The position numbers and the translations under genes were made by a program. Positions 27,350 through 42,822 of a stretch of 64,000 nt of DNA are shown here, in pieces. Where the stretch lies: positions 1 through 64,000 of the forward strand of contig JAJRXK010000058.1 in assembly GCA_024276305.1 (NCBI GenBank). Reading direction: 5' to 3'. Position 1 is the first letter of the stretch, and the number at the start of each line of letters is the position of its first letter. The notes under the pieces were generated by a model. That model was not told the DNA's origin. It saw nothing but the letters and a program-made list of their open reading frames with translations, and searched no databases. This DNA comes from Candidatus Krumholzibacteriota bacterium. Lineage in GTDB: Bacteria; Krumholzibacteriota; Krumholzibacteriia; JAJRXK01.

Positions 27350-27379
27350 AGGTCCCAGCCTAAAGGTTGGGACCTTTTC
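27350..27379 (+). terminator. Rho-independent terminator after the amidohydrolase
   Basis: AGGTCCCAGCC pairs with GGTTGGGACCT (one G-T pair) around a TAAA loop, followed by TTTTCT. It begins 54 bases after the stop codon at 27296 and separates this gene from the hybrid kinase. Confidence 0.88.
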
Positions 27380-27441
27380 TCCCGATACAGACTTCGATCG
27401 AGATTCCGCGAATCCTGCATCCAAGAAAAGGCTCCGAAGCT

Positions 27442-30400
27442 GTGTCCACTCGCCACCTGCGCTATTCCCTACTCTGCCTGTTCTTCATTGGAGCTGCGGC
27501 TCGGGCCACGAGTGCCGGGGTACGGGCTTCACACCTGAACTTCGAGCGCCTCGATCTCCGCGACGGGCTCTCTCAGAACACTGTGAACGCCCTGCTCCAA
27601 GACCATGAGGGCTTCCTGTGGATCGGCACCCAAAACGGTCTCAACCGATACGATGGCTATCGGTTCTCCACTTTCTTCCACGAGAAGAAGAGCGACACCA
27701 GCCTGAGCAACAGCTACGTCCTCGCTCTGATGGAAGACCGGCTCGAGCAGATGTGGGTGGCCACCAACGACGGGCTGAACATTTTCGATCGTGACCACAG
27801 CACTTTCGCGTCGATTCTGGTCGACTTCGAGAACCCCGAGGCTCTACGCAATGGCCGGGTTCGGGCCCTGGCCGAAGACATCGACGGATTCCTCTGGGTG
27901 GGTACCGAAGGAGGGGGCCTTCACCGTATCGACCTCCAAACTCGCCGTGTGGAGCGAATCCTTCCAAAGACTCCCGCAACGGAATCGGGGAGCTTGGGAG
28001 AATCGTCGGTCATCTTGTCGCTGATGATCGATCGCGACGGTCAGCTGTGGATCGGATCGAGAGCCGGACTCTTCCGGATGGACACTCATCGCTACCAAGC
28101 GCAGAAGATCGACCTCGAGGCTGCGAACTTCGATCCGAGTTCGGAAGAGATCGACGCACTCCATCAGGATTCGCGGGGCCGAATCTGGGTCGGAACCCTC
28201 GGCAGTGGGCTCTTCTGCGTCAGCCCCGAAGGCAAGGTCATGGAGCATCTGCGCCATGACATCAACGACCCCACCACTCTCAGCGGCGACTTCGTGCGGG
28301 CAGTCTACGAGGACTCGAGCCGAACCCTCTGGGTCGGCACACGATCGGGCCTCAACATTCGCACGGACGGCGAAGAGGTCTTCCAGCACGCCAAACGAGC
28401 CTACCAAATCGGAGGATTGCCGGACAATCACATCACTCGGCTGTATCAGGACCGGAGCGGAGTGCTGTGGTTGGGAACCGCCACCGCCGGACTCGCCAAG
28501 CACGTGCAGGAGGACCATCGCTTTCCGTGCATTCGATTCCAGTCCGATGATCCCACACGGTCCGGCACCAATGTCATCCGGGCGGTCTTTCAGGACAGCG
28601 ACGCCCTCCTCTGGATCGGCACCGAGGGTGACGGATTGCTCTGCTACGACCGACGTACCGGTCGTGTAGAGCAGTTCTCTCATGATGCGACCAACCCACA
28701 GTCTCTCGTGGGACCTACAGTTCGAGCCATCGCACAGGATGCCAGCGGTCACCTGTGGCTGGGAGCCGATGGAGAAGGCCTGACGATCTTCGATCCCAAG
28801 GCACGGACCTTCGAGCGCATGCCGCCTCGTCCCGCCTCTCCCGACGCCCTCCCCACAGGGGTGGTGCGAACACTCTTGCCCGACGACCAAGGCGGGATGT
28901 GGGTCGGACTCTTCGGAGGTGGCCTCCACTACTACGATCCCGAGAAGAAGATCTTCACCCGGCACTACCGCGAAGACGACTTCACCAATGGGGCAGGGAT
29001 CAGCGACTACGTGTACACGCTGACCAGGGCCCGAGACGGGAAGATCTGGGTGGGGGGAGTGAATCTCTGCGTCTTCGATCCTTCTTCCGAACGCTGGTTC
29101 CACTACCCCAAAGGGTCCGACACCAAGTACGAGATCGACAGCAACTTCATTCTCCAGATCACCGAGGCCAGCGACGGCTATTTCTGGATCTCGACCACCA
29201 ACGGCCTCTTCCGCCTCGACCCCAAGAATCAGACCTTCCTCCACTTTACCGAGGATGACGGCCTTCCTGACAACATGATCTATGCCGCCCTCGAAACCCA
29301 GGACGGCAATCTGTGGCTCTCGACGAACCGAGGTCTGGCGGAGTTCGACCCCGGCACCGGCGCCGTACGTCACTACGATTCCAGCCACGGGCTCCAGAGT
29401 TCGGAATTCAATGGCGGATCCTACTTCCAGAGTGCCGATGGAGAGCTCTTCTTTGGGGGAATCGACGGTCTGAACGCCTTCTACCCCGAGCGCATCGGAC
29501 GAAGCGAAGCCGCACCCCAAGTTGCATTCACCGATCTTCAGCTCTTCAACGAATCCGTTGTCGTCGGACAGGAGTATTCGGGACGGGTTCTTCTCGACCG
29601 ATCGATTACCGAGACGCGAGCAATCGAGATCTCTTACGACCAAAGTGTCATTGCGTTCGAATTCGCCGGCTTGCACTTCGTCAGTCCTGAAAAGAATATC
29701 TATGCCTACCGCCTGAAGGGATTCGAGCAGTCCTGGAACGAGGTCGGAAACCGGCGCTTCGCCAGCTACACCAGCTTGCCTCCTGGGCGCTACGAATTCC
29801 AAGTACGAGCGGCCAACAACGACGGGGTGTGGAATCCCACTCCGGCCACCATCGCATTGCGGGTCCTTCCCCCGTTCTGGATGACCACCTGGTTCCGGGG
29901 GCTGGCCATCCTGGCCTTCGTGTCCTTGGTCTGGCTCGTCCTCTACGTCCGCACCCGAGCCATCGCGATGCGGAACCATGAACTCGAAGAGCGCGTGCGA
30001 GAACGGACCAGCAAGCTCGAGAACGAGATCCAACAGAGGCAGCAAGCGCAGCTCGAGCTCGAAGAGGCAAGAGATGCCGCGGAGGCCGCGAGTCGCGCCA
30101 AGGGACAGTTCTTGGCCAACATGAGCCATGAGATCCGGACTCCCATGAACGGCATCCTGGGCATGACGCAGCTCCTACTGGACACCGACCTCAGCGAAGA
30201 ACAGATGGACTATGCGCAGACCGTCTACGAAAGCACCCAGGTGCTCCTGTCGGTGATCAACGACATTCTGGACTTTTCCAAGATCGAGTCGGGCCGTTTG
30301 GACATCGAAACCATCGGCTTCGACCTGCACCGGAGCGTCGATGGCGTGCGCGACCTCCTCTCATGGAAGGCCGAGGAGAAGGGCCTGCAGTTCCGGTGCA

Positions 30401-31260
30401 GAGTGGATGACAGGATTCCGGATGTTCTCATGGGAGACCCTCTGCGAATCCGTCAGGTTCTGCTCAATCTCCTTGGAAATGCCATCAAGTTCACCGAACA
30501 AGGATCCGTCTCCTTGGATGTGCGATTGGTGGCGCGTCACGATCGTGTCGCCCGGCTCGCCTTTTCGGTCCGCGACACCGGCATCGGTATCCCCGAAAGA
30601 AAACTGGAGTCGCTCTTCGACTCCTTCTCTCAGGTGGATGAATCCACCACTCGTCGCTTCGGCGGCACCGGGCTGGGATTGGCCATTTCCAAGCAACTCG
30701 TGGAAATGATGGGAGGCACTCTCGTCGTCCACAGCTGTGAGGGACAGGGTTCCGAATTCCGGGCCGAGATCGATTTCGGGATCGGTCACACCAGTGATCT
30801 GGAAAGCGTCTGTCTCGATCCGGCCCCGGTGAACTCACCCTCCCCGACCTGCGCTCCGGGAACCATAGTATTGCTCGCCGAAGACAATCCGGTGAACCAG
30901 AAGCTGGCCCAGCGCATCCTCGAACGAGCCAACTATGAAGTCGTCGTCGCCAACAACGGGCAGGAAGCTCTCGATGCCCTCGACCAGAGTCCCCCCTTCG
31001 ATGTCGTGCTCATGGACGTACAGATGCCGGTGATGGATGGCTTCGAGGCCACTCAAGCCATCCGAGGCGGAGAAATCGAAGGGATCGACACCGCAATCCC
31101 CATCATCGCTCTCACTGCGCACGCGATGCGGGGAGACCGTCAGAAATGTCTCATCGCCGGTATGGATGACTACGTGACCAAGCCGATTCACCGCGAAATC
31201 CTGATCGAGACCATCGAACGTCACATCGAAGCCTCGCGAGTTTCGGTCACGGATGTCTGA
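27442..31260 (+). CDS. hybrid histidine kinase with ligand-sensing propellers and receiver domain
   Basis: About 1272 aa, starting at GTG 27442; an earlier TTG (27367) lies inside the terminator and is rejected. A signal or anchor segment is followed by two seven-bladed propellers made of Reg_prop repeats (WIGTxxGLNRYD type), a Y_Y_Y domain (about 725-800) and one transmembrane helix (about 815-835). The cytoplasmic part has a coiled coil, HisKA ([15 protein letters not shown], His near 890), HATPase ([17 protein letters not shown]) and a C-terminal receiver ([11 protein letters not shown], phospho-Asp, Lys in VTKPI). No DNA-binding domain is fused, unlike Bacteroides HTCS proteins. The ligand is unknown. 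The next gene is convergent. Confidence 0.95.
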
Positions 31261-31277: not shown

Positions 31278-32066
31278 TCAATCCTCGTCCAGGCGCAGGG
31301 GGGACAAAGGGGCGTCGAGATCCAGCAGGTCGAGCGTTCTCCACACGACTCGCGACTGTTGGTCACGATCTCCAACGCGGCCCAGCGTCGCACCCCGCCC
31401 GAGCCGGGTGAAGGTTGCTCGTGGCGGGTTCAAGGACCGGGTTCGTCCCGGATGCCACGAGCTCAGAGTGGTAGCGATCCCTGCACACTCCAGCCCTCTC
31501 GCGATCAGCCCCACGGACTGACAACACAGAGGTCACGAGGGAACCAAGAATGCAGCATCGGCCCCCGCACCCTTGGCGGCGGCAATCAGCTCCGGAAGAG
31601 TTTCATCCGCGACGCACCCCAAGTCCGGCTGATAGCCCATGAAACTCAGCCAGATCTCCGCCACCGAGCCGATACGACCCTCTTCGACGCCCTCTTGGAG
31701 GAGCTCGAGGGGAAGGAGCACCCCAGGATCCTCCCGGACTGCGCTCTGGTCATAGTGGTCGTGGGCGAAATCGAGGCCGGCAAGCCCGTCTTCCCATCGG
31801 TGCTCCCGCACTTCGTAGTCCCCCAGCGGATCCGAAGCCCGAAACGCAGCGTGCCGCGAGGGATCATAGGCTCCGGAAGACGAGATCAGGAGTAGACGAC
31901 TCGTGCGAAGATCGACTCCCGCCCCGTTCAACGGCGGCAGCGTGGGGGTCTTCGGATAGAGACTCCAATCGATCTCGCCGCTCCGGTCGAAATGCGCACG
32001 CCAGCCCTCGCGCAGCTCGGATTCCCATGACGGTCGCGCGGGGAAGAATTCTTCGGGAAAGTCCAT
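31278..32066 (-). CDS. GrdB/PrdB-family selenoprotein, UGA-encoded selenocysteine (Sec178)
   Basis: Read through one in-frame UGA (31533-31535), the gene encodes 262 aa. Before the UGA the protein runs to ADAAFLVPS and after it to PLCCQSVGLIARGLECAGI and SLNPPRATF. This matches the glycine/sarcosine/betaine/D-proline reductase selenoprotein B family, whose active site is Sec-x-x-C in this very position (here U-P-L-C). Both halves are in one frame, and a SECIS-like hairpin follows the UGA. ATG 32066 has GAGGAA upstream and lies 15 bases after the outer-membrane barrel gene, so it ends the cytochrome operon. The family reduces C-N or related bonds; the substrate of short, stand-alone members is unknown. 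Confidence 0.85.
31505..31521 (-). promoter_or_regulatory. bacterial SECIS-like hairpin
   Basis: On the minus strand, 11 nt after the UGA, TCAGTCC pairs with GGGCTGA (7 bp, one U-G pair) around a GUG loop. A short stem at this distance with G at the start of the apical loop fits the known bacterial SECIS pattern: E. coli fdhF also places its upper stem 11 nt after UGA. SelB would bind it to deliver Sec-tRNA. Confidence 0.7.
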
Positions 32067-32081
32067 CGGGTTCCTCGGGAT

Positions 32082-33638
32082 TCAGAGTCGGAGAGTGGCC
32101 GAAAACCAGTGCTCCTGGTAGGCCTCGTTTCCTTCGAAACTGCGCTCGAAATCATAACCCACGCTCCAACGCGAGCCGATTTCTGCCTCCGCGCCCCATC
32201 CGAACCAGGGGTCGGTGAAATCGCTGAGGTCGTTGTCCTTGCCGTTCTCGTGGCGGAGCCCCGCGAAGAGTTCCAGGGTGAATCCTCGGTCATTGCCCCA
32301 CCCCAAACGACCGGATTGCAACCATCCATCGACTAGGTCATTGCGATAGGCCGTGCTGCGCGAAACCACCCACCAACGGCCTTTCCAGTCCTCGCTGCCT
32401 CGCAGATCCAGGGTCAGCGCATCTGCCCCATCCTGACTCGCTCCGCGCCGGCTTCGCAGCATCACGCCCCAGCTATACGAGGAGTTCAACCGATGCCGCA
32501 AGCCGGCCCACAGGCCTTGCCGATAACGATCGTCGAATCGAGTCTCCGGAGTCTCCAGATCCCGATAGCGCCGAATGGGACGGCGGTTGTCATAGCCTCC
32601 GAAGACCACTACCGCATCGTCCAGCCTCGAGCGCAATAGTAGATGGCTTCGAGTCAATGAAAAAGTCTTTCCCTCGAGAGCATGCTTCCAAACACGGTTC
32701 ACATCCACATCCTGGGTCGCCACCAGGGTGAATCGCCGAGAGGAATACCGTGACCTCAAGTGCACGAACTCGCGATCGAAGTGTCCGGAGTCATAGGATC
32801 CCGCATAGCCCATTCCCAGGCGCCACTTGTTTCCATGTGTCGTCGTGTGATGATGAAAGAGCATGAATCCGGCGCGAAGGCTCGTGGCCCGGAAACCCAG
32901 GTTCAACCCATCCGGCTGGGTTCCTCCGAGTGCCTGGAGTTCCCAAGATCCCCTACGCCAACCCATCTGGGCACCATCGACGAGTCCGAAGGCTCCGACG
33001 TCGGTGGAGTACTGTCGCCCGAAACTCCACCGCACTCCATGGGACTCGGTCGAGAGAGTGAATTTGTAAATGCGATTGCGCTGCAGTGTCGGTTGACCCT
33101 TCGCGGAATAGATGCTCCGGCGAGTCCGAATATCGATGTCCGCATCCCAACGATTCGCCAACACCTGGCGCCCCTTCAGCCTCAATCGGGCCGCGGGCTG
33201 CCAGAGATCCCGTCCGAGTCCGCTCTCGTCACGGAGGTAGAGGAGATCGACCGCCACTCTTCCGTGCAGACCGGAGCGGCGGCCTCGAGAAGAGGGATCG
33301 AGGCCATGGGCTCCGCTTTCGGACGGGGATCGATTCAACGCGCCGAGGGGGACCACAGAATCCCCCATCACCGGACGATCCACTCCCTCTACGAGGCTAC
33401 AGGCCGCCCGTCGAGAAGAGAGCTCACGCACCTCGAGCTGGGCCACGACTTCGCCATCTCGTCGCAACTCGAGTCGCTGTCCCACTCTCAATCCGGCATT
33501 CGCCCCCAGGTCGATGTAGACCGTGCGCGCGGTGACGTAGGTCACGCGGGCCGTCGCCGGCTCCGCCACTCCCGTTCCGGGCCATCCGAGACCCACCAAG
33601 ACCACGAGGCACCAGAGTCCGGCCTGCCACGCCCGCAT
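32082..33638 (-). CDS. outer-membrane beta-barrel of the cytochrome operon
   Basis: Protein of 518 aa with signal peptide (LWCLVVLVGLGWPGTGVA). Residues about 27-85 form a small beta domain (VYIDLGANAGLRVGQRLEL...), similar to the SH3-like folds often attached to envelope proteins. The remaining 400 residues alternate polar and aromatic residues in many short strands and end in HWFSATLRL, as expected for a large barrel. It starts inside the stop of the 12-haem cytochrome gene (TGATG overlap). By position it is the best candidate for the porin sheath of a porin-cytochrome conduit. No sequence family was recognised. Confidence 0.8.
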   Translation of the reverse strand: MRAWQAGLWCLVVLVGLGWPGTGVAEPATARVTYVTARTVYIDLGANAGLRVGQRLELRRDGEVVAQLEVRELSSRRAACSLVEGVDRPVMGDSVVPLGALNRSPSESGAHGLDPSSRGRRSGLHGRVAVDLLYLRDESGLGRDLWQPAARLRLKGRQVLANRWDADIDIRTRRSIYSAKGQPTLQRNRIYKFTLSTESHGVRWSFGRQYSTDVGAFGLVDGAQMGWRRGSWELQALGGTQPDGLNLGFRATSLRAGFMLFHHHTTTHGNKWRLGMGYAGSYDSGHFDREFVHLRSRYSSRRFTLVATQDVDVNRVWKHALEGKTFSLTRSHLLLRSRLDDAVVVFGGYDNRRPIRRYRDLETPETRFDDRYRQGLWAGLRHRLNSSYSWGVMLRSRRGASQDGADALTLDLRGSEDWKGRWWVVSRSTAYRNDLVDGWLQSGRLGWGNDRGFTLELFAGLRHENGKDNDLSDFTDPWFGWGAEAEIGSRWSVGYDFERSFEGNEAYQEHWFSATLRL

Positions 33639-34630
33639 CAACTCTTCCCCCGCGGATGACAGTCGAAACAGGCGAAACTGTCGTAGCTGTAGCCACTGAC
33701 CTCGCGGTGATCTCCATCGGTCTTGGAACGATCGCTGTGCGGATGGCAACCGACACATTCGAAATCTCCGAAGTCACTCGAGTTCACGTGACAGTCGCTG
33801 CAGACATCCCATTTTCCACGGTGGGCTCCCGAATTGATGGGGAAGTAGTCTCGGTGGGAGCACTCTGCGTCTTCCCACCGTCGGGTGTTGTGACAGAGCT
33901 GACACTCGGTCGAGAACCCGAGATCCGCGTGCCGGGGATTGGAGGTCGCATCGTAAGCGCTCTGATGACACTCCGCGCACACCAGCGATGCACCTCCTAG
34001 CTGGCGTTCGTGATTGAAGAATCCTCCCACGAAGGTCCGGGTGCTGTGGCAGAACTCGCAATCCTGGGAGAAGGCATTGGCGACGTGATCGGGATCCTTC
34101 GCCCCCGAGTATTCCGCCTCATGGCAGGCAACGCAGGCGCTGTCGACGCCCAGGAATTCCAGGATTCCCTCCATGCCCACCGGATGACAGGACTCACAGG
34201 GGGCCGTCGCATGAGCCCCCGAAAGTGGAAAGCGCTCTTCGCGATGGAGCCGGCGCTGATCCACCACGTCGATGAAGCTCCTGGATCCGTGACACCGATC
34301 GCAATCGAGTCCCAATTGGCCCTGATGAACATCCATATGACAGTCCGAGCACTCCGAACCGGTGAACGAGAAGCGCAGATCCTGGTGACAGTCCATGCAG
34401 TCGAGGCGTGCATGTGCGCCCGAAAGGCTGAAGCCGAATCGGCGATGATCGAATTCCGCACCGATTCGAAGGGGGCTCCAGGCCGAAGAGCTGTGGCACC
34501 TCTCGCAGGCCAGTCCCAGATCGCTGTGTGGACTCTCGAAACCGACTTCGGCCACCGCGACGAGATGGATTCCCATCACCATCCCGGCGACCATCAGCCC
34601 TCCGAGAAACCGAACTCCACCCGTTGTCAT
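33638..34630 (-). CDS. 12-haem c-type cytochrome
   Basis: Secreted or periplasmic cytochrome of 330 aa. After a signal peptide (LMVAGMVMGIHLVAVA) I count twelve CxxCH haem sites: CERCH, CMDCH, CSDCH, CDRCH, CESCH, CVACH, CEFCH, CAECH, CQLCH, CSDCH, CVGCH and CFDCH. Additional His residues in GAHARLDC- and HREERFPLSGAH-type segments can serve as distal ligands. One haem per 27 residues is typical of electron wires such as MtrA-like proteins. The ATG overlaps the stop of the 20-haem gene (ATGA), so the two are made together. Confidence 0.95.
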   Translation of the reverse strand: MTTGGVRFLGGLMVAGMVMGIHLVAVAEVGFESPHSDLGLACERCHSSSAWSPLRIGAEFDHRRFGFSLSGAHARLDCMDCHQDLRFSFTGSECSDCHMDVHQGQLGLDCDRCHGSRSFIDVVDQRRLHREERFPLSGAHATAPCESCHPVGMEGILEFLGVDSACVACHEAEYSGAKDPDHVANAFSQDCEFCHSTRTFVGGFFNHERQLGGASLVCAECHQSAYDATSNPRHADLGFSTECQLCHNTRRWEDAECSHRDYFPINSGAHRGKWDVCSDCHVNSSDFGDFECVGCHPHSDRSKTDGDHREVSGYSYDSFACFDCHPRGKS

Positions 34631-36402
34631 CGGGGGACTCCCTTCGTATGACAGTCCTCACAGGCCTTGGGCACGCCAGAGAAGTCCCGCCGAACCTCGG
34701 CCGCTGCGCCGCGAATGAGCGTCGAAGCCAATGGCGCTCGGGTCAACGACGGGTGACAGAGAAAACAAGGAGTGGCCCGGTGCGCACCCTCCAGCGAGAA
34801 GGCAAAGCCCTGATGGAGATTCACGTCCACGAGAGAGGGACGAAACCGCTCGGTGCCATGGCAGTCCTCGCAACGATGGCGGAGCCCGTGGGGGGCAGAA
34901 TTCGAGTACCTGCCCCCATGAACGTCGACATGACACTCCGCACACTCCGTCTCGATCCCGCGAAAGACGAGACCAGTCGTGCCCGCAGTGGACGCGTCGA
35001 CCGAATCGAGGCCGGGACGGTCCAGTGCGTGGCAGGACTCGCACTTCACCCGTTGGTGGGCCCCCGCAAGCGGGAACGTCGCACTTGCGTGCGCGTCGAT
35101 CCCGAAGGTCGAGGGTCGAAAGCCATCCACGACATGGCATCGGTCGCAGTTGCCCCCCCCCGAAGAGAACTGTCCTCCGTGGGCATCCCGATGGCAGGAC
35201 GCGCAAGCGTCGAAGACCGGGCGCATCTTCACTCCCGCTTCCCCCCATTGCTGACGATCCGCATCGTGCGGATGGCACTTCGCGCATTCGACATCGCGGT
35301 GCTTGCCCTCGAGGGGATAGCGAGTCGCCGCATGGGCGACGAGGTCGAAGGTCGAGGGCCGGAACCCCCGGAGTCCGTGGCAGGCCTCACAGTCCTTGGA
35401 ATCATTTCCGAGGGTCGCGGTCCCCTGGTGAGGATCTCCGTGGCAGGATCCGCATCTCTCGAAGGATGGCTTCTTTCCCCACCCTCCCAGCGCGGGATCG
35501 TGGCACTGTCCGCACTTCACTCGACGATGCGCACCCTGCAAGGGATAGCGGGTGCGTGCGTGATCGAAATTCGATCGAGAGACCACCTCGAATCCGTCGA
35601 CGACATGGCAATTCTCGCAGGCCGCTCCGAAGCGACCTTGGTGCACGTCCCGATGGCAAGAGCCACACTCGGTGGTCGCAAGTCCCTGTAGAACCCATTC
35701 GGCCTTCTCCCGCCGGCTCGATGCGAAGCGTCCGTTCTCATGGCACTTGGCGCACTCGACCTGGGCGTGGCGACCCTCCAGCGCGTAGCCCGTCTTCCGA
35801 TGATCGAAGTCCTCGACTCCGTGCCACCGACTCGACCCGTGACAGTCGGCGCACACCGTTCCCAAGCGTCCACCGTGCGGATCCGCGTGACAAGACGTGC
35901 AGGCCGAGTCGAGACCCACCCAACTTCGGGCCAAATCCTGGACCTGCATGCGCAGGGTGATGCTTCGCGATTGACGGTCGGCTCGATGACAGCTCCGGCA
36001 CTCCTCTCTCGCGTGGGCTCCGGAGAGGGGCCAACCCGTTCGGCCGTGGTCGAAACTCTGGCTGGGATCCGATTCCCAGGCGATCAGCTCGAATCGACGA
36101 CCCGCGTGCTCCGGATGGCATCGGGCACAGTCCTTTTTCCCCTCGCGAGCGTGCAGACCCCGCCCCTTTTCCAAGAGAAAGGCGATGCCCTCGTGGCACG
36201 CGAGACAACGGTCGTCGACCGATGCCTTGCCTCCGGCGTGACACCGCGTGCAATTGCGAACTCCTTCGAAGTCCGCGTGAGCACTGGAGAGCTCCCCGGG
36301 TGAGATCTGTGCTCTCGCGCCCCCAGGCAAGCAGAGCACCAGGATCACGACCCCCAGCCCGAAAGCCACCGGTCCTTCGAAGATCCGACGCAACTCATGC
36401 AT
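34627..36402 (-). CDS. 20-haem c-type cytochrome with repeated modules
   Basis: Protein of 591 aa with a signal peptide (VVILVLCLPGGARA). I count twenty CxxCH sites spread from CTRCH near residue 51 to CEDCH near 583. The segment FDHxxTxYPLxGxHxxVxCxxCH recurs at least six times, so the protein grew by duplication of a module of roughly 80-100 residues. The His residues in these modules are probable distal haem ligands. Its size would span a long distance as a wire through the periplasm. It overlaps the iron-sulphur flavoprotein gene by 8 bases and the 12-haem gene by 4. Confidence 0.95.
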   Translation of the reverse strand: MHELRRIFEGPVAFGLGVVILVLCLPGGARAQISPGELSSAHADFEGVRNCTRCHAGGKASVDDRCLACHEGIAFLLEKGRGLHAREGKKDCARCHPEHAGRRFELIAWESDPSQSFDHGRTGWPLSGAHAREECRSCHRADRQSRSITLRMQVQDLARSWVGLDSACTSCHADPHGGRLGTVCADCHGSSRWHGVEDFDHRKTGYALEGRHAQVECAKCHENGRFASSRREKAEWVLQGLATTECGSCHRDVHQGRFGAACENCHVVDGFEVVSRSNFDHARTRYPLQGAHRRVKCGQCHDPALGGWGKKPSFERCGSCHGDPHQGTATLGNDSKDCEACHGLRGFRPSTFDLVAHAATRYPLEGKHRDVECAKCHPHDADRQQWGEAGVKMRPVFDACASCHRDAHGGQFSSGGGNCDRCHVVDGFRPSTFGIDAHASATFPLAGAHQRVKCESCHALDRPGLDSVDASTAGTTGLVFRGIETECAECHVDVHGGRYSNSAPHGLRHRCEDCHGTERFRPSLVDVNLHQGFAFSLEGAHRATPCFLCHPSLTRAPLASTLIRGAAAEVRRDFSGVPKACEDCHTKGVPR

Positions 36403-37798
36403 CGACTTGTGACTCCACGAGGGGAATGTCTTTCTTCACGATCTGCACCCCGATGCGCTCGAGGAAGGGATAGGGTGCTTCGCCCCCGATGCGCACGATG
36501 AGATCGTCGTTGGGGAGCGTGTGCACCCCCCCGCCATCTTCGATGTCGATCTCACCGCTTCGAATTGCCCGCACCTGACTTTCTCTCCACACGCGCAAGG
36601 CACCTCGAGACTCGGCCTCGTCGAGCTTGGCCACATTGCGCTCCTTCGCCCGATCGAAGCTTGCCTTGCGATAGGAGAGAATCACTTCGGTCCCCTCTTG
36701 TTCGGCCAATCCCAAAGCCGACTCCAATGCGCTGTCCCCACCCCCTACGACCACCACCCGTCGTCCGGCGAAGGCCTCCATCTCGACGATGTCATAGAAT
36801 ACCGAGGCGCAGTCTTCACCCTCGATCCCCAATCTCCGAGGACTCCCGCGCCTTCCCATGGCCAAAATGACCCTGGCTGCCCGAAGGTCACCCTGTGAGC
36901 TGCGCAGGAGGAAGCTGCCCACTCTGCCCTCCACCGCGATCACCCGATGTTGGGTCTTCACCTCGACCCCGGTCACCTCCACGATGGTCTCCCAGGCTGC
37001 GAGCAGGGATTCCTTCGAAGTGTCGGCGATCCAGAGATCCCCGTAGAGTGGGATGTGGACCGGCTCGGCCAAAAGTAGTTTGTGGCGGGGGTACTTGCGG
37101 ATCGTGTCCGCCAGAGAGCCTTGCTCGAGCACCACATAATCCACTCCGAGTCTCTTGCATTCGAGTGCCGCGCTCAGACCGGCGGGGCCCGATCCCACGA
37201 TCGCGACCTGATAGAGGTGCGGCTGCGCCGAGGTGGAATCGGGCTCGAACTCTTCGGCCGCGACACTGCGCGCCGCCACGCAACCTTCGTTGATTGCATT
37301 CTTGATGAGTCCCCTCCCGCCCAGCTCTCCCACCACGTAGATCCCCGCCACATCCGACTGAAAATCGGCTCCGACGCGGGGCACCTCCACCCGTTGGGCA
37401 TTCCCCGCTCCGACGACGATCGCGGAAACGGGGCAGGCCTCCGCGCAGTGGCCATGCCCCACGCACTTGGTCAGATCCACCATCGCCAACTTCCCCTCCA
37501 TGCGGAGAGCGCCCTCTTCGGGGCAGGCCGGGACACAGACCCCACAGCCCACACAGAGATCGGAGCGGACCACCGCATGAGACTCGACCCCGGAATCGAG
37601 ATCCGACAACGCTTCCTCCGCGCCCACGACTTCGAAGATCTGAAGGGGAATCCCACACTTGGTGCAACGGTTGGGTCGATCGTCCAACTTGGCTCCGCAG
37701 GCCGGACAGGTCGGCACCACCACGCCCCGGCTGCGCTCCCGCAGGTGGCGCGACGCGAACCATGCGGTCAGGAGAAGGAATCCGATCGTCCACCACAT
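36395..37798 (-). CDS. membrane-anchored iron-sulphur FAD/NAD(P) oxidoreductase
   Basis: Protein of 467 aa. An N-terminal helix (WWTIGFLLLTAWFA) is followed by a zinc ribbon (CPACG ... CTKCG) and a ferredoxin domain. The first cluster motif is complete (CVGCGVCVPACP). The second reads CVGHGHCAEACP, with His in place of the second Cys. The C-terminal 330 residues are a thioredoxin-reductase-like two-nucleotide fold: VGSGPAGLSAAL for FAD and VVVGGGDSALESA for NAD(P)H. It probably passes electrons between NAD(P)H and the membrane cytochrome or haem wires encoded beside it. Direction cannot be told from sequence. Confidence 0.92.
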   Translation of the reverse strand: MWWTIGFLLLTAWFASRHLRERSRGVVVPTCPACGAKLDDRPNRCTKCGIPLQIFEVVGAEEALSDLDSGVESHAVVRSDLCVGCGVCVPACPEEGALRMEGKLAMVDLTKCVGHGHCAEACPVSAIVVGAGNAQRVEVPRVGADFQSDVAGIYVVGELGGRGLIKNAINEGCVAARSVAAEEFEPDSTSAQPHLYQVAIVGSGPAGLSAALECKRLGVDYVVLEQGSLADTIRKYPRHKLLLAEPVHIPLYGDLWIADTSKESLLAAWETIVEVTGVEVKTQHRVIAVEGRVGSFLLRSSQGDLRAARVILAMGRRGSPRRLGIEGEDCASVFYDIVEMEAFAGRRVVVVGGGDSALESALGLAEQEGTEVILSYRKASFDRAKERNVAKLDEAESRGALRVWRESQVRAIRSGEIDIEDGGGVHTLPNDDLIVRIGGEAPYPFLERIGVQIVKKDIPLVESQVDA

Positions 37799-37810
37799 CT
37801 CGATGCGCCC

Positions 37811-38707
37811 TCAATAGAACCAAGTGGAGCCTACGACGACCACCACGATCACGTGGATCAACACCGCCAACAATGCGGTCATGGCCACCGGTTTGTGGAA
37901 GACATGCCAGTAACGGAAGATGGTCTGAGTACGATGGAGCAGCCGCGCCTGTTGAGACAAGGCCATCTGCTGCCGGGCCAGTACGACCACTCGATCGAGG
38001 GCGGACTCGTCGAAGTCTGCTCCCTCCGCGATCAAGCGGCGGCAACGGCCTCGGAGTCGACGCACCGCGCGTCGTCGTTCGAAGTCGTCGCGGGCCATCT
38101 GCAGGAGTCCGCCCAAGATGCTCAGCGAGGCCTTGGGAGGGTCGGCGGCCAGCTCGCTCTCGACCAGAGCCTGTTGCAGTCCAGTGATGCCGGCCAATTC
38201 CACGAGGAGCTGGCGGCGCTTCTGGGCCAAGTCCTCGGCGCTGAGCTCGAGACCGTTCCACCCTCTGGGAATGTGGACATAGACGTAGCGACCGATGACT
38301 CCACTCAGTGCCACGATGAACATCGCCCACCACCCCAGACCGATGACTCCATCGAAACGCCACGCCGAATGAACTGCTCCGAAGTAGCAGATGGTCAGAC
38401 CGACCACGATGTGCACGTCGAGCCACTTGGGGAGGGGTCCGAAGCCCTTGCGAGCGCCGATCTTCTTGCGCAGGGGGTAGAGCCAGAGAAAGAGCAGACC
38501 GGCCAGAGTCACGATGCCTGCGCTCTGTCCCACCCATCCGGAGGGTCGCAGCCAGTCGTGCATCTCGTGACGCACCCGCACTTCCGTCGGCGCGAAGTAG
38601 TAGGAAGATCCCCAAACGCTGAGGGCGGTGAGCAGAACTACCGGCGCCCACACCCAGGGGGACACCGATCCCACCGCTCTCTTACCACCGCTTTGGTCAT
38701 CTGCCAT
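37811..38707 (-). CDS. inner-membrane cytochrome b-like protein
   Basis: Protein of 298 aa starting at ATG 38707; a longer reading would begin inside the divergent promoter region. Four helices lie within about 20-145, then a soluble, Arg-rich alpha-helical stretch of about 110 residues, then a last helix (VAMTALLAVLIHVIVVVVV). His residues in LDVHIVV, GAVHSAW, YWHVFHKP and LIHVI are placed for one or two b-haems, as in cytochrome b561/ferric-reductase-like proteins. It is the first gene of the operon and 12 bases before the flavoprotein, consistent with a quinone- or flavoprotein-linked entry point. Confidence 0.8.
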   Translation of the reverse strand: MADDQSGGKRAVGSVSPWVWAPVVLLTALSVWGSSYYFAPTEVRVRHEMHDWLRPSGWVGQSAGIVTLAGLLFLWLYPLRKKIGARKGFGPLPKWLDVHIVVGLTICYFGAVHSAWRFDGVIGLGWWAMFIVALSGVIGRYVYVHIPRGWNGLELSAEDLAQKRRQLLVELAGITGLQQALVESELAADPPKASLSILGGLLQMARDDFERRRAVRRLRGRCRRLIAEGADFDESALDRVVVLARQQMALSQQARLLHRTQTIFRYWHVFHKPVAMTALLAVLIHVIVVVVVGSTWFY

Positions 38708-39009
38708 TTCGAACCAAGGGCCAGGGAGAAGGACCAGGTCCGGCGGGGAACCTTGGGCCACCAAAACGAACGGCCGCCCACCGGCCGCGTCCGAGAGCCA
38801 TCGCACTGCATGGCTCGTGCCCGACACTAGTGCATCCACACCATTGTTGGGATGGGCGAATATGGTCCCTCTATTGACCACTGTCGCGAACTGGCAGGGA
38901 TCGGGGCTGGCGCTAGATTTCGGGGGGACGGGGCGCGAACTTGGCCCTATCATGGCAGCTCGTCCCTGAAGCCCCCAACCCCGTTCACGACCTCTCGCGG
39001 AGGAATCCG
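38708..39009. other. intergenic region between divergent operons
   Basis: About 300 bases separate the cytochrome operon (minus) from the outer-membrane protein gene (plus). It should hold both promoters. TTGACC occurs near 38875 but no well-spaced -10 partner is clear. No hairpin or repeat stands out. Confidence 0.4.
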
Positions 39010-39597
39010 ATGCAGCACCGCCTCCTCTTTGCCCTCCTTCTGACCTCTCTGGTGGTCACCGGCCCAGGATTCGCCCGCGCCGAACGCCTCGAGCACGGCA
39101 CCTTCGAATGGAGTTTCGCGGGCTCCGGATCACGAGAGAGCTTTCAGCTCGACGGATCCGAGAACGGCGATCGGACTCGGTTCTCCATGATCACCGAAGT
39201 GGGCTACTTCCTCACCCCGGTCTTCGAAATCGCGATCAATACCGGCGGAACTCACACCAGCATCGAGCCCCAGGGCCGCGCCCGGAAGAAGTCCAACTCC
39301 TTCATTTTCGGGGGACGCTTGATCGTCAATGTTCCCAACGAGTCCCGCGTGACCCCCTACGCCTACCTCGGCTCCGGCGTCCGCACCTATAGTGGTGACG
39401 AAGCCCTGGTGGGAAGCGAAACCGCATCCATCCTCCCCACCATGGGAGTCGGTGCTCGCTACTTCTTGGGTGATCACGTGTCCTTCAACATGCAATTCGA
39501 CTTCAGCAAGATTCAGAACGACAATGGCGTTCTCAATGCGGACACCGATGTCATCACCTTCTCCTTCGGCTTTTCGACCTTCCTGAGGAGGCCCTAG
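39010..39597 (+). CDS. small outer-membrane beta-barrel protein
   Basis: Protein of 195 aa with a signal peptide (LLFALLLTSLVVTGPGFARA) and an OmpX/OmpW-like barrel of about eight strands (EVGYFLTPVFEIAIN, VTPYAYLGSGV, GVGARYFLGDHVSFNMQF, final ITFSFGFSTF). ATG 39010 has GAGGA upstream. It heads a plus-strand series with metal uptake genes, so a role in metal homeostasis or envelope adaptation is possible but only by context. Confidence 0.82.
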   Translation: MQHRLLFALLLTSLVVTGPGFARAERLEHGTFEWSFAGSGSRESFQLDGSENGDRTRFSMITEVGYFLTPVFEIAINTGGTHTSIEPQGRARKKSNSFIFGGRLIVNVPNESRVTPYAYLGSGVRTYSGDEALVGSETASILPTMGVGARYFLGDHVSFNMQFDFSKIQNDNGVLNADTDVITFSFGFSTFLRRP

Positions 39598-39621
39598 CTT
39601 CTCTTGCCCTCTTTCGGATCC

Positions 39622-39903
39622 ATGCACGGACTGAGGCTCAGATCCCTGGCGGTCGGGGTCCTCGTGGCGACCTTGGTCGCAGTGGTACTATTGCCGCTGT
39701 GCCATTTGAGCTCCGCCCACAGCGAAGAATGTCCCCTTTGCAATCCATTGGCCCACGGTTTCGAGCCCGTAATCTCCCTCGAAACTCTAGCGATTCCTCT
39801 CACCCCATCGTCGACGACTCCTTCCCGCCGCACTCCCCTTCCCAGCGGCAGTCCCGCCACTCAGTGGGCCGGACGGGCGCCTCCCACAGGATTCACGGTC
39901 TAG
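39622..39903 (+). CDS. small secreted or membrane-anchored protein with CPLC motif
   Basis: Protein of 93 aa from ATG 39622. A hydrophobic segment (LAVGVLVATLVAVVLLPLC) is followed by HLSSAHSEECPLCNPLAHG, whose His and Cys residues could bind a metal. The rest is Pro/Ser/Thr-rich. It lies 24 bases after the barrel gene and before the porin and metal ABC genes. The arrangement is reminiscent of small DUF2946-like metal-associated proteins, but the match is too weak to assign. Confidence 0.55.
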   Translation: MHGLRLRSLAVGVLVATLVAVVLLPLCHLSSAHSEECPLCNPLAHGFEPVISLETLAIPLTPSSTTPSRRTPLPSGSPATQWAGRAPPTGFTV

Positions 39904-39964
39904 CCTCAATCTTCGCGGGAGCATTCTGCTCCTGACCGTGAACATCCTCGTGGGAAGGTCTTCC

Positions 39965-41038
39965 ATGGATATACGATTGCCTTCGGCAAGTTGTCTTTGC
40001 CCTGCTGTCCTCCTATTCGTCGCCGCGTCCCTCACCCCTACCGGCAGCGCCTGGGGAGCGGGAGAGAGCACGACCACCGGGGTGTCGCGTGCGTTCAATC
40101 CAGCTCTCAGTCTCAACGGTCTCTTTCTCTTCGGACTCGACACCCGAAGCGACACGGAATCCGACGAACTCACCCAGGGAATCGAGGTGCAGGAAGTCGA
40201 GATGAGGTTGACTTCCACGATCGACGCCTACTCGAAGGCAGATGCATCTCTCTCGTTCTCGAACGACGAAATAGCCTTCGAAGAGGTGTACATCCGATCT
40301 TCGGTGCTGGGCCACGGCATCGGATTGAGAGCCGGACGCTTCTATGTCCCGTACAGCATCGAGAATTCGATGCACACGCACCAGCTTCCCTTTCTCCGGC
40401 GCACTCTCCAGGAATCCTCCGTCGCCACCGAAAACTACCGGGACACCGGATTGGAGCTGAGCTGGCTGGCCCCCACCTCATTCTATCTCGAGGCCTCCAC
40501 TGCCCTCCTCGACGGGAACCTTCCTGGCTGGTTCGACTCCAGTCGCTCGAAGGACTACGCGTACCACGGACGCCTCTCTGCCCTTGTGGACCTTGGAGAG
40601 GCGACGACCGCCTCACTGGGGGGCGGGGTCGTCACCGGCCGCAACTCGCGTGGCGGTTCGAGCACCCTGAGCTCGGTGGCATTCACACTCCGATGGCGTC
40701 CCCTCCGACGAGCCATCTACCACAGCTTCCACGCCCGCGCGGAGTACACCTACGCAGATCGGACCGGAACCGAATCCTACTCCTCCGGCGGTTTCGATTC
40801 GATCCTTCAGTACCAATTCGGTCGCCGATGGTGGTCCGGCCTGCGCTACGACAACCTGGATCCGTCCGACCAGGACCAGAACTCATGGCGGTGGAGTACG
40901 CAGATCGCGTTCGTCCCCAGCGAATTCCAGGTCCTTCGGGCAGAGCTTTCGTCGGTGCACACCCCGAACGACCAATTCCGAGAGTTCTTCCTGCAATACA
41001 ACTTCACGATCGGGTCGCATCCGGCCCACCGCTACTAG
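39965..41038 (+). CDS. outer-membrane porin-like protein upstream of the metal transporter
   Basis: Protein of 357 aa with a signal peptide (AVLLFVAASLTPTGSAWG). ATG 39965 has GGAAGG upstream. The body consists of barrel strands with features of phosphate-selective porin-like families (IGLRAGRFYVPYSIEN, DTGLELSWL, final FREFFLQYNFTIG). The stop is 9 bases before the zinc/manganese-binding protein gene, so it is co-transcribed and probably the outer-membrane entry route for the same metal. That role is inferred from context only. Confidence 0.8.
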   Translation: MDIRLPSASCLCPAVLLFVAASLTPTGSAWGAGESTTTGVSRAFNPALSLNGLFLFGLDTRSDTESDELTQGIEVQEVEMRLTSTIDAYSKADASLSFSNDEIAFEEVYIRSSVLGHGIGLRAGRFYVPYSIENSMHTHQLPFLRRTLQESSVATENYRDTGLELSWLAPTSFYLEASTALLDGNLPGWFDSSRSKDYAYHGRLSALVDLGEATTASLGGGVVTGRNSRGGSSTLSSVAFTLRWRPLRRAIYHSFHARAEYTYADRTGTESYSSGGFDSILQYQFGRRWWSGLRYDNLDPSDQDQNSWRWSTQIAFVPSEFQVLRAELSSVHTPNDQFREFFLQYNFTIGSHPAHRY

Positions 41039-41047
41039 GAGGCCATC

Positions 41048-41995
41048 ATGGGTTCTACCACACTCCTCCCGCGCTTCGTGGCCTGCCTCTTGGTTCTTGG
41101 ATCCACGATTCCATTTTCCGCAAACGCACACGCAAAAACGATCAAGGTCGTCGCCACCACCACGGACATCGCCTATCTCTTCGAGGCGATCGGAAATTCC
41201 CAGGTCGAAGTTCGAACTCTGGCCAAGGGCTATCAGGATCCCCACTACCTTGAGGCCAAACCGAGCTATATCGCACGCATGCGCGACGCGGATCTTCTGG
41301 GCTACGTGGGTCTCGAGCTCGAGGTCGGGTGGCTACCGCTTCTCGTCGAAGGCGCGAGGAATTCCCGGCTCGGAGCCGGTGGGCAAGGAAATGTGCCGCT
41401 GTCCGTGGGAATCGAGATTCGAGATGTCCCGGCCGGCGAAGTCGATCGATCCAAGGGAGACCTCCATCCACTGGGCAATCCGCACTACTGGCTCGACCCC
41501 CGCAACCAGATCATCATGGCGGAAACCATCGCGACCGCCCTGGCCCTGACCGATCCTGACCACAGGGAAGACTACTCGGCCAACCTCGCGGAATTCCGCA
41601 CTCGCCTTCGATCTGCGATCGACCGATGGGAAGAGGAGATGGCTCCCTTCCGCGGTCGCAAGATCGTTTGCTACCACACTCAATGGGAATACCTCACGGA
41701 TTGGATGGGGCTGGAAATCGTGGATTACGTCGAGAACCGGCCCGGAATTCCCCCCTCTCCACGTCATCTCCACGAGCTGAAACAGCGGATCGTCGGTGAG
41801 CACATCCCCTTGATCCTGATGTCGAACTTCTTCGAAACCGGTTCCGTCGAAAAGATCGCGAAATCCACGGGCGCCATTCTGGTCGTCGCGCCGGCTTCGA
41901 TCAAGGGCGAAGACTCCATCACCGACCCGGTGAAGCTCTTCGACCACCTCGTCGAATCCATCACCGCGGCCCTGTCCGATGGAGACACACCATGA
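41048..41995 (+). CDS. zinc/manganese ABC transporter substrate-binding protein
   Basis: Periplasmic cluster A-I binding protein of 315 aa with a signal peptide. It starts with KVVATTTDIAYLFEAIG, typical of ZnuA/TroA/PsaA. Probable metal ligands are His in KGYQDPHYLEAKPS, His in NPHYWLDP and His in VCYHTQWEYL. There is no His-rich loop as in high-affinity ZnuA. Metal preference (zinc, manganese or iron) cannot be decided. The stop overlaps the permease start (ATGA). Confidence 0.92.
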   Translation: MGSTTLLPRFVACLLVLGSTIPFSANAHAKTIKVVATTTDIAYLFEAIGNSQVEVRTLAKGYQDPHYLEAKPSYIARMRDADLLGYVGLELEVGWLPLLVEGARNSRLGAGGQGNVPLSVGIEIRDVPAGEVDRSKGDLHPLGNPHYWLDPRNQIIMAETIATALALTDPDHREDYSANLAEFRTRLRSAIDRWEEEMAPFRGRKIVCYHTQWEYLTDWMGLEIVDYVENRPGIPPSPRHLHELKQRIVGEHIPLILMSNFFETGSVEKIAKSTGAILVVAPASIKGEDSITDPVKLFDHLVESITAALSDGDTP

Positions 41996-42822
41996 CCGAG
42001 ATCATGAGCATCATGTGGTTGCCATTCCTCGCATGCCTGGTCCTGGTGACGATTCACTCCTATTTGGGCATTCATGTTCTGGCTCGGGGAGTGATCTTCG
42101 TAGACCTGGCTCTGGCTCAGATTGCCGCCCTGGGAAGCACGATCGCCGTACTCCTCGGCTACGAGCTTCACAGTCGTCCAGCCTACGCCCTCTCCCTGCT
42201 GTTCACGCTCATCGGTGCGGCAACCTTCGCGTTTTCCCGAGTGAAAATGCGCGGAGTGCCTCAGGAAGCCTTCATCGGCGTCAGCTATGCGGTCGCGAGC
42301 AGCGCTGCAATCCTGGCTCTGAACTCTGCGCCGCACGGCGCCGAACAGATCAAGACAATCCTCGTGGGGTCCATTCTGTGGGTCACTCCACAGGAAGTTG
42401 CGAAGACCGCAGTCATCTATTCACTCGTCGGCCTCTTCCACTGGATCTACCGTCGGCAATTCCTGCGAATGAGCTTCGACACCGACTCCGCGGAAAGGTC
42501 AGGAATGAAAGTTCGGTGGTGGGATTTCCTCTTCTACGCATCCTTCGGGTTCGTGGTCACGAGCTCCGTGAAGGTCGCGGGCATCTTGCTCGTGTTCAGT
42601 TTTCTCATCGTACCCGGCATCATGGGAACACTCTTCGCCACTACGATCCGCAATCGTCTATTGGTAGGATGGAGTACCGGGTGGATCGTATCGATGTTGG
42701 GTTGTCTCGTGTCCTATGAAGCCGACCTTCCAACCGGCGCCACCGTAGTATGTACCTTCGGTGTCGCCCTATTCGTCGCGGTGATGATTCGCAGATGCCG
42801 AGCTCAGAGCCCGGCCCGATGA
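41992..42822 (+). CDS. zinc/manganese ABC transporter permease
   Basis: ZnuB-family permease of 276 aa with about eight membrane helices. Typical parts are [28 protein letters not shown] near the N-terminus and [23 protein letters not shown] near residue 200. The start codon overlaps the binding-protein stop. No ATPase gene follows; instead the 3-prime end overlaps the convergent histidine kinase by 54 bases. An ATPase encoded elsewhere must serve it. Confidence 0.92.

Follow-up and report, generated by a model that had tools for sequence, protein, structure and literature searches.

A predicted PCC3-like electron conduit with a conserved flavoprotein, and the selenoprotein gene behind it, in a Candidatus Krumholzibacteriota genome

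The stretch of DNA analysed here, referred to throughout as the window, comprises 64,000 nucleotides from a Candidatus Krumholzibacteriota bacterium (GenBank assembly GCA_024276305.1, contig JAJRXK010000058.1, positions 1 to 64,000) and contains an operon of six tightly packed genes, all on the minus strand, between positions 31278 and 38707. In reading order these are MEMB (37811-38707; 298 residues), a predicted inner-membrane, five-helix di-haem cytochrome b; FLAVO (36395-37798; 467 residues), a protein with two [4Fe-4S] sites and a flavin adenine dinucleotide (FAD)/NAD(P) domain like that of YpdA and ferredoxin-NADP reductases; CYT20 (34627-36402; 591 residues) and CYT12 (33638-34630; 330 residues), c-type cytochromes with signal peptides and 20 and 12 haem motifs, respectively; BARREL (32082-33638; 518 residues), a predicted outer-membrane β-barrel; and SEL (31278-32066; 262 residues), a PrdB/GrdB-like selenoprotein with a UxxC motif. 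FLAVO and CYT20 overlap by 8 bases, CYT20 and CYT12 by 4 and CYT12 and BARREL by 1, while gaps of 12 and 15 bases separate MEMB from FLAVO and BARREL from SEL. An earlier reading of the same DNA (the original prediction) had described six minus-strand genes with these junctions, in agreement with the open reading frame listing and its translations, and had named a 20-haem and a 12-haem cytochrome, in agreement with the CXXCH counts of 20 and 12. We propose, with a probability of about two in three, that the first five genes specify a trans-envelope electron conduit of the type known as PCC3, equipped with its own cytosolic flavoprotein, and that SEL encodes a genuine selenoprotein that is not one of its subunits.

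PCC3 was defined as a set of four components and is carried by Sideroxydans, Leptothrix and others (He et al. 2017, PMC5566968). A membrane protein and a porin are accompanied in it by two cytochromes, one periplasmic with about 21 haems (median 21) and one extracellular whose haems are very numerous. The membrane protein, or 'IMP', has about 300 residues and five helices, with an SGXXG motif on helix 4 and WX3HX13H motifs on helices 3 and 5 (PMC5566968). This published signature is found in MEMB, which has five hydrophobic segments and reads WLDVH-x13-H, SGVIG and WHVFH-x13-H at the corresponding motifs. Both WX3HX13H motifs are kept in 20 of 20 homologues and SGXXG in all but one divergent protein, and the four histidines of the former are proposed to ligate two b haems. 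MEMB has no match in Pfam or NCBIfam, and a search of the PDB with a profile of its alignment found no convincing relative; a single-sequence AlphaFold2 model was of low confidence (predicted local distance difference test score, pLDDT, 61) and a structural look-up with it returned middling Z scores only, to unrelated helical proteins. Elsewhere in our collection (whose loci and genomes are cited under L and G numbers), a PCC3/PCC4-like membrane protein with an N-terminal ferredoxin-like fusion (L118:5489-7489) adjoins 6- and 27-haem cytochromes and recalls a gene of Oceanospirillum beijerinckii that He et al. show with an Fe-S/membrane-protein annotation.

For both cytochromes, Pfam and NCBIfam models support a c3/c7-type assignment. 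CYT20 has a signal-peptide-like N-terminus and 29.6 residues per haem motif, CYT12 a signal peptide without a lipobox and 27.5 residues per haem motif, and both ratios lie within the range of 22-39 published for PCC3. Among homologues the haem count of CYT20 is nearly constant, being exactly 20 in most, while that of the partner cytochrome is mostly between 10 and 52. CYT20, presumably loaded with haem at every motif, is thus predicted to be the periplasmic wire and CYT12 the counterpart of the variable-length distal or extracellular cytochrome. Against the DmsE/MtrA-type model TIGR03508, whose cut-off is 192, CYT20 reaches 39 bits, and a PDB sequence search with the protein returned nothing useful. 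Plasmid matches of CYT20 in Sphingobium were considered as possible copies of the module and rejected, being short cytochromes beside DUF1622 genes. Another frame, at L144:12845-18001, contains 69 or more CXXCH motifs and is cut by the end of the stretch that was retrieved.

The feature that sets this operon apart is FLAVO. By matches in Pfam, NCBIfam and the PDB it combines a Pyr_redox/YpdA-like FAD-NAD(P) domain with two [4Fe-4S] sites, and it has an N-terminal hydrophobic segment; in the alignment the cluster cysteines are invariant and the glycine motifs for FAD and for NAD(P) are present. By eye, the FAD/NAD(P) part shows no CxxC of the thioredoxin-reductase type, as would befit a protein that passes electrons to clusters and not to thiols. 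The basic residues that follow the second glycine motif (YRKASFDRAK) suggest that NADPH is the nucleotide used, an assumption that we carry over from known families. The protein of the window also has a zinc-ribbon-like insert (CPAC...CTKC), which the aligned relatives do not have. FLAVO belongs to 19 of 19 complete homologous loci, within the phylum and beyond, and in two genomes of other groups (G253 and G355) it forms a single polypeptide with MEMB (L142:6259-9297 and L144:6892-9156). In the part of the literature that we covered, which was incomplete and did not extend to supplements, descriptions of PCC3 make no mention of such a flavoprotein, and as a companion of PCC3 it is apparently undescribed.

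Conservation of the five genes was assessed in a class sample of 80 genomes, equal to the whole phylum in our collection, and in a wider sample of 387 genomes. MEMB is found in 23 and CYT20 in 26 genomes of the class, and MEMB in 55 of the 387. Apart from the locus of the window there are 19 complete five-gene loci (10 from the class, 8 from genomes of other groups, one carried by plasmid pEMTOL02 of Emticicia oligotrophica) and many partial ones, so that the arrangement is far beyond chance. Two gene orders prevail. MEMB-FLAVO-CYT20-CYTn-BARREL, where CYTn is the cytochrome of variable haem count, is the order in the window, in G234 and in Emticicia, and G183, G129, G272 and G315b are consistent with it though cut by contig ends; MEMB-CYT20-CYTn-BARREL-FLAVO is the order in the rest of the class and in G088, G293 and G315, and a few loci are rearranged relative to both. 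On pEMTOL02, EMTOL_RS21090-RS21110 reproduce exactly the order of the window, but this cluster differs in having ccsA upstream and cytochromes with 23 and 40 haems, and in lacking a selenoprotein. The module is thus known beyond Proteobacteria, in Bacteroidota (Emticicia) and in many other groups. In trees of FLAVO, MEMB and CYT20, the proteins of the window stand apart from those of their own class and group instead (supports 0.88-1.0) with those of G272 and/or G315b, which lie outside the phylum. This grouping, together with a gene order unlike that of the class, points to horizontal acquisition, and the module of the window was probably acquired in this way.

BARREL, the fifth gene product, has no match in Pfam or NCBIfam, and a PDB profile search with its alignment found no convincing relative. 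Nevertheless, an alignment of 14 homologues displays the alternating hydrophobicity of β-strands (autocorrelation of -0.17, +0.17, -0.16 and +0.13 at lags 1-4, with a standard deviation of about 0.05) and 21 strong amphipathic segments compared with 13.8 +/- 2.3 in shuffled controls. A C-terminal phenylalanine is present in 11 of 13 relatives, although the protein of the window itself ends in leucine. About 20 amphipathic strands are predicted, together with an N-terminal periplasmic β domain (approximately residues 28-85), and BARREL is likely to be an outer-membrane β-barrel. It might instead be a separate outer-membrane protein that does not sheathe a conduit, the cytochromes then remaining periplasmic; this would sit well with the missing family match, with a number of strands below that of most PCC3 porins and with a single-sequence AlphaFold2 model that is β-rich but too low in confidence (pLDDT 32) to inform on the fold. 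We find this improbable, because BARREL adjoins the variable cytochrome in most loci, where the 1-base start/stop overlap with the preceding cytochrome gene recurs, and because of the alternation and terminal phenylalanine of its homologues. The same genome encodes a second cytochrome-barrel pair, split between contigs C6 (L100:11427-14593) and C51 (L101:9727-10566) that share 368 bases at their ends with 98% identity; its members are a 19-haem cytochrome and a barrel to which a further N-terminal domain, AMIN-like by eye, is added, and neither MEMB nor FLAVO was seen beside the pair.

SEL has an in-frame TGA at codon 178 (31533-31535, minus strand), which is predicted to encode selenocysteine in the context SUPLC and thereby to complete a UxxC motif (UPLC). 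It matches the GRDB family (PF07355) with 23.0 bits against a cut-off of 22. A homologue of 47% identity on an Anaerolineae metagenome-assembled scaffold (L026) has TGA at the same codon, with homology on both sides, and the genome of the window encodes SelA, SelB and tRNA-Sec, all above their cut-offs. By these features SEL is a genuine selenoprotein of the GrdB/PrdB family, as the original prediction had it, and the possibility of a pseudogene broken by TGA was rejected, the codon and the downstream frame being conserved in L026. Directly 3' of the TGA lies a hairpin (31495-31532, minus strand) seen by folding and alignment (-22.7 kcal/mol, z -1.86, with 10 of 200 shuffles equally good), whose apical stem is TCAG/CTGA here and GCAA/TTGC in this one homologue while the loop is unchanged, which is suggestive of an element like a selenocysteine insertion sequence (SECIS); an Rfam scan of the window returned no RNA family. 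The protein has no signal peptide and is predicted to be cytoplasmic. No proline or glycine reductase genes lie beside it, and neither a PDB sequence search nor an alignment-profile search gave a useful or convincing relative. Against the PrdB model TIGR04483 it scores 73.1 bits (E 2e-20), below the cut-off of 300, which by this measure is too distant for an assignment as the PrdB of D-proline reductase.

Does SEL belong to the conduit? A Shine-Dalgarno-like GAGGA stands in the 15-base gap ahead of its start, and no terminator-like or promoter-like site is found between BARREL and SEL, for which reason SEL is likely to be co-transcribed with the conduit genes. These features, along with a similar base composition, would favour a scenario in which all six genes form one unit, the conduit exchanging electrons with SEL as a cytosolic reductase or substrate-specific enzyme in a new selenium-dependent extracellular respiration. 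Moreover, SEL and MEMB co-occur in 11 of the 387 genomes against 5.3 expected, an approximately twofold excess, and outside the class in 10 against 3.5 expected (p ~0.0009), in statistics that ignore shared ancestry and a shared anaerobic or selenium-using lifestyle. Gene neighbourhoods tell otherwise. No SEL-like frame was seen in any other module locus that was read, and the surroundings of some 35 other SEL loci (for most, some 1.5 kb to either side) contain no frame in which at least three haem motifs occur. In each of the 10 other genomes that have both SEL and MEMB, the two are on different contigs, the genomes of G272 and G315, which carry the nearest relatives of the module, have no SEL homologue, and SEL is likewise missing from the paralogous cytochrome-barrel pair in the genome of the window. 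Within the class, SEL is found in 3 of 80 genomes, and only that of the window has both SEL and a CYT20 match. A conserved six-gene operon was therefore rejected, SEL being absent from every other module locus that was read and multihaem cytochromes from the surroundings of the other SEL loci examined. We regard the six-gene unit as unlikely and a working role of SEL in the conduit as more unlikely still; SEL is probably a passenger behind the operon in this genome. The original prediction had looked to the persistence of the six-gene order in other genomes and had staked itself on the selenoprotein and the cytochromes occurring together: the order persists for five genes and not for the sixth, and adjacency is absent from all other loci examined, although the two share genomes somewhat above chance.

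How might such a conduit work? Predictions portray PCC3 conduits as protein wires of very great length, for which neither a cytosolic partner nor a direction of flow has been established. In the conduit that we propose, electrons would pass between cytoplasmic NAD(P)H (or ferredoxin) and the FAD and two [4Fe-4S] clusters of FLAVO, cross the inner membrane by way of the two b haems of MEMB, enter CYT20, which would span the periplasm, and reach CYT12, seated in or beyond the outer-membrane barrel, from which they would be handed to an outside partner (a metal, a mineral, an electrode or another cell). The path would be reversible in principle. The constancy of the flavoprotein in the complete loci seen, and its occasional fusion to the membrane subunit, point to NAD(P)H or ferredoxin as the cytosolic partner instead of, or besides, quinone. 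The boldest form of this idea, which we put forward tentatively and a little short of even odds, is that FLAVO and MEMB constitute one flavocytochrome b that links cytosolic NAD(P)H to the cell outside through the 20-haem wire and the barrel while bypassing quinones, and hence that the module is a trans-envelope NAD(P)H oxidoreductase of many bacterial groups, distinct from four-gene PCC3.

Two alternatives concern the source and direction of the electrons. Following the PCC3 proposal of He et al., the quinone pool might feed the conduit through MEMB and FLAVO be an accessory reductase off the main path, in keeping with the quinone-active cytochrome b of the published model (PMC5566968) and with module-like loci in which FLAVO was not detected (e.g. 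L140, L141 and L146, which are partly cut by contig ends). We consider this rather unlikely, given that no complete locus of the window's form is without FLAVO and that in the two genomes mentioned it is fused to MEMB. Electrons might also flow inwards, with Fe(II), Mn(II), a cathode or another cell as the donor and FLAVO making NAD(P)H. PCC3 has indeed been found in iron and manganese oxidisers, and in strain CL21 one of the PCC3 copies has a membrane-protein gene whose level increased along with iron-oxidising activity; however, both PCC3 clusters of strain ES-1 decreased on Fe(II) (PMC8788666) and sequence fixes no direction, and inward flow is likewise a minority view in our judgement.

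Several considerations temper the proposal of a PCC3-type conduit with its own flavoprotein and without SEL. Every part of the conduit is predicted from sequence, and the barrel fold from sequence pattern only. The assignment to PCC3 was made through published motifs and descriptions, no record named as PCC3 having come up in the collections searched, and later work still describes PCC3 itself as functionally unverified (PMC12442390). As to SEL, the contigs of the nearest relatives, G272 and G315b, end before the barrel gene is complete, so that the gene after it cannot be read, and the mildly raised co-occurrence of SEL and MEMB leaves room for an indirect link. The natural FLAVO-MEMB fusions provide single polypeptides in which the cytosolic partner could be tested.

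The operon is flanked on one side by a convergent gene for a hybrid sensor kinase (27367-31260, plus strand; Reg_prop, Y_Y_Y, HisKA, HATPase and receiver domains), whose end lies 17 bases from that of SEL. On the other side, divergent genes starting at 38941 (38941-42822, plus strand) encode a small outer-membrane barrel, a weakly Porin_O_P-like protein, a ZnuA-type metal-binding protein and an ABC-3 permease. This locus, which includes porins of its own, would seem to serve the uptake of zinc or manganese.

Comparison with known systems places the module closest to PCC3. MtrCAB, MtoAB and PioAB follow the same general plan of a barrel with multihaem cytochromes, but CYT20 fails the MtrA/DmsE-type model and BARREL has no family match. 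PCC4 (PMC5566968) has a membrane protein with the same motifs as well as Fe-S and other redox genes in its cluster, but its cytochromes have 4, 5 and 10 haems and the large 20-haem protein is absent. SEL shares with the PrdB/GrdB family (pfam07355) its UxxC motif and family match, and PrdB-like UxxC selenoproteins are a well-known and abundant family in marine metagenome data (PMC2398784). The original prediction was right to see a porin-cytochrome-type conduit operon, in view of the PCC3 motifs of MEMB and the recurrence of the five genes, and right that no layer of the envelope is left out by the set. Its remark that it knew no named system pairing such a conduit with a GrdB-family selenoprotein fares less well, since the conduit has had a named counterpart since 2017 (PMC5566968) and the pairing is not a conserved unit. 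PCC3 and the module of the window have in common a membrane protein of about 300 residues with five segments, SGXXG and two WX3HX13H motifs, a cytochrome of about 20 haems and one of variable haem number, both with low residue-to-haem ratios, and an adjacent porin gene (a predicted one in the window). In contrast, the predicted barrel of this module, with its 20 or so strands, is smaller than most PCC3 porins, a selenoprotein gene follows the module in this genome only and, above all, the four genes of PCC3 are joined here, as in every complete locus, by a gene for a [4Fe-4S]/FAD protein. The module is therefore classed as a variant of PCC3 rather than PCC3 in the strict sense, its flavoprotein being additional to the gene set described so far.

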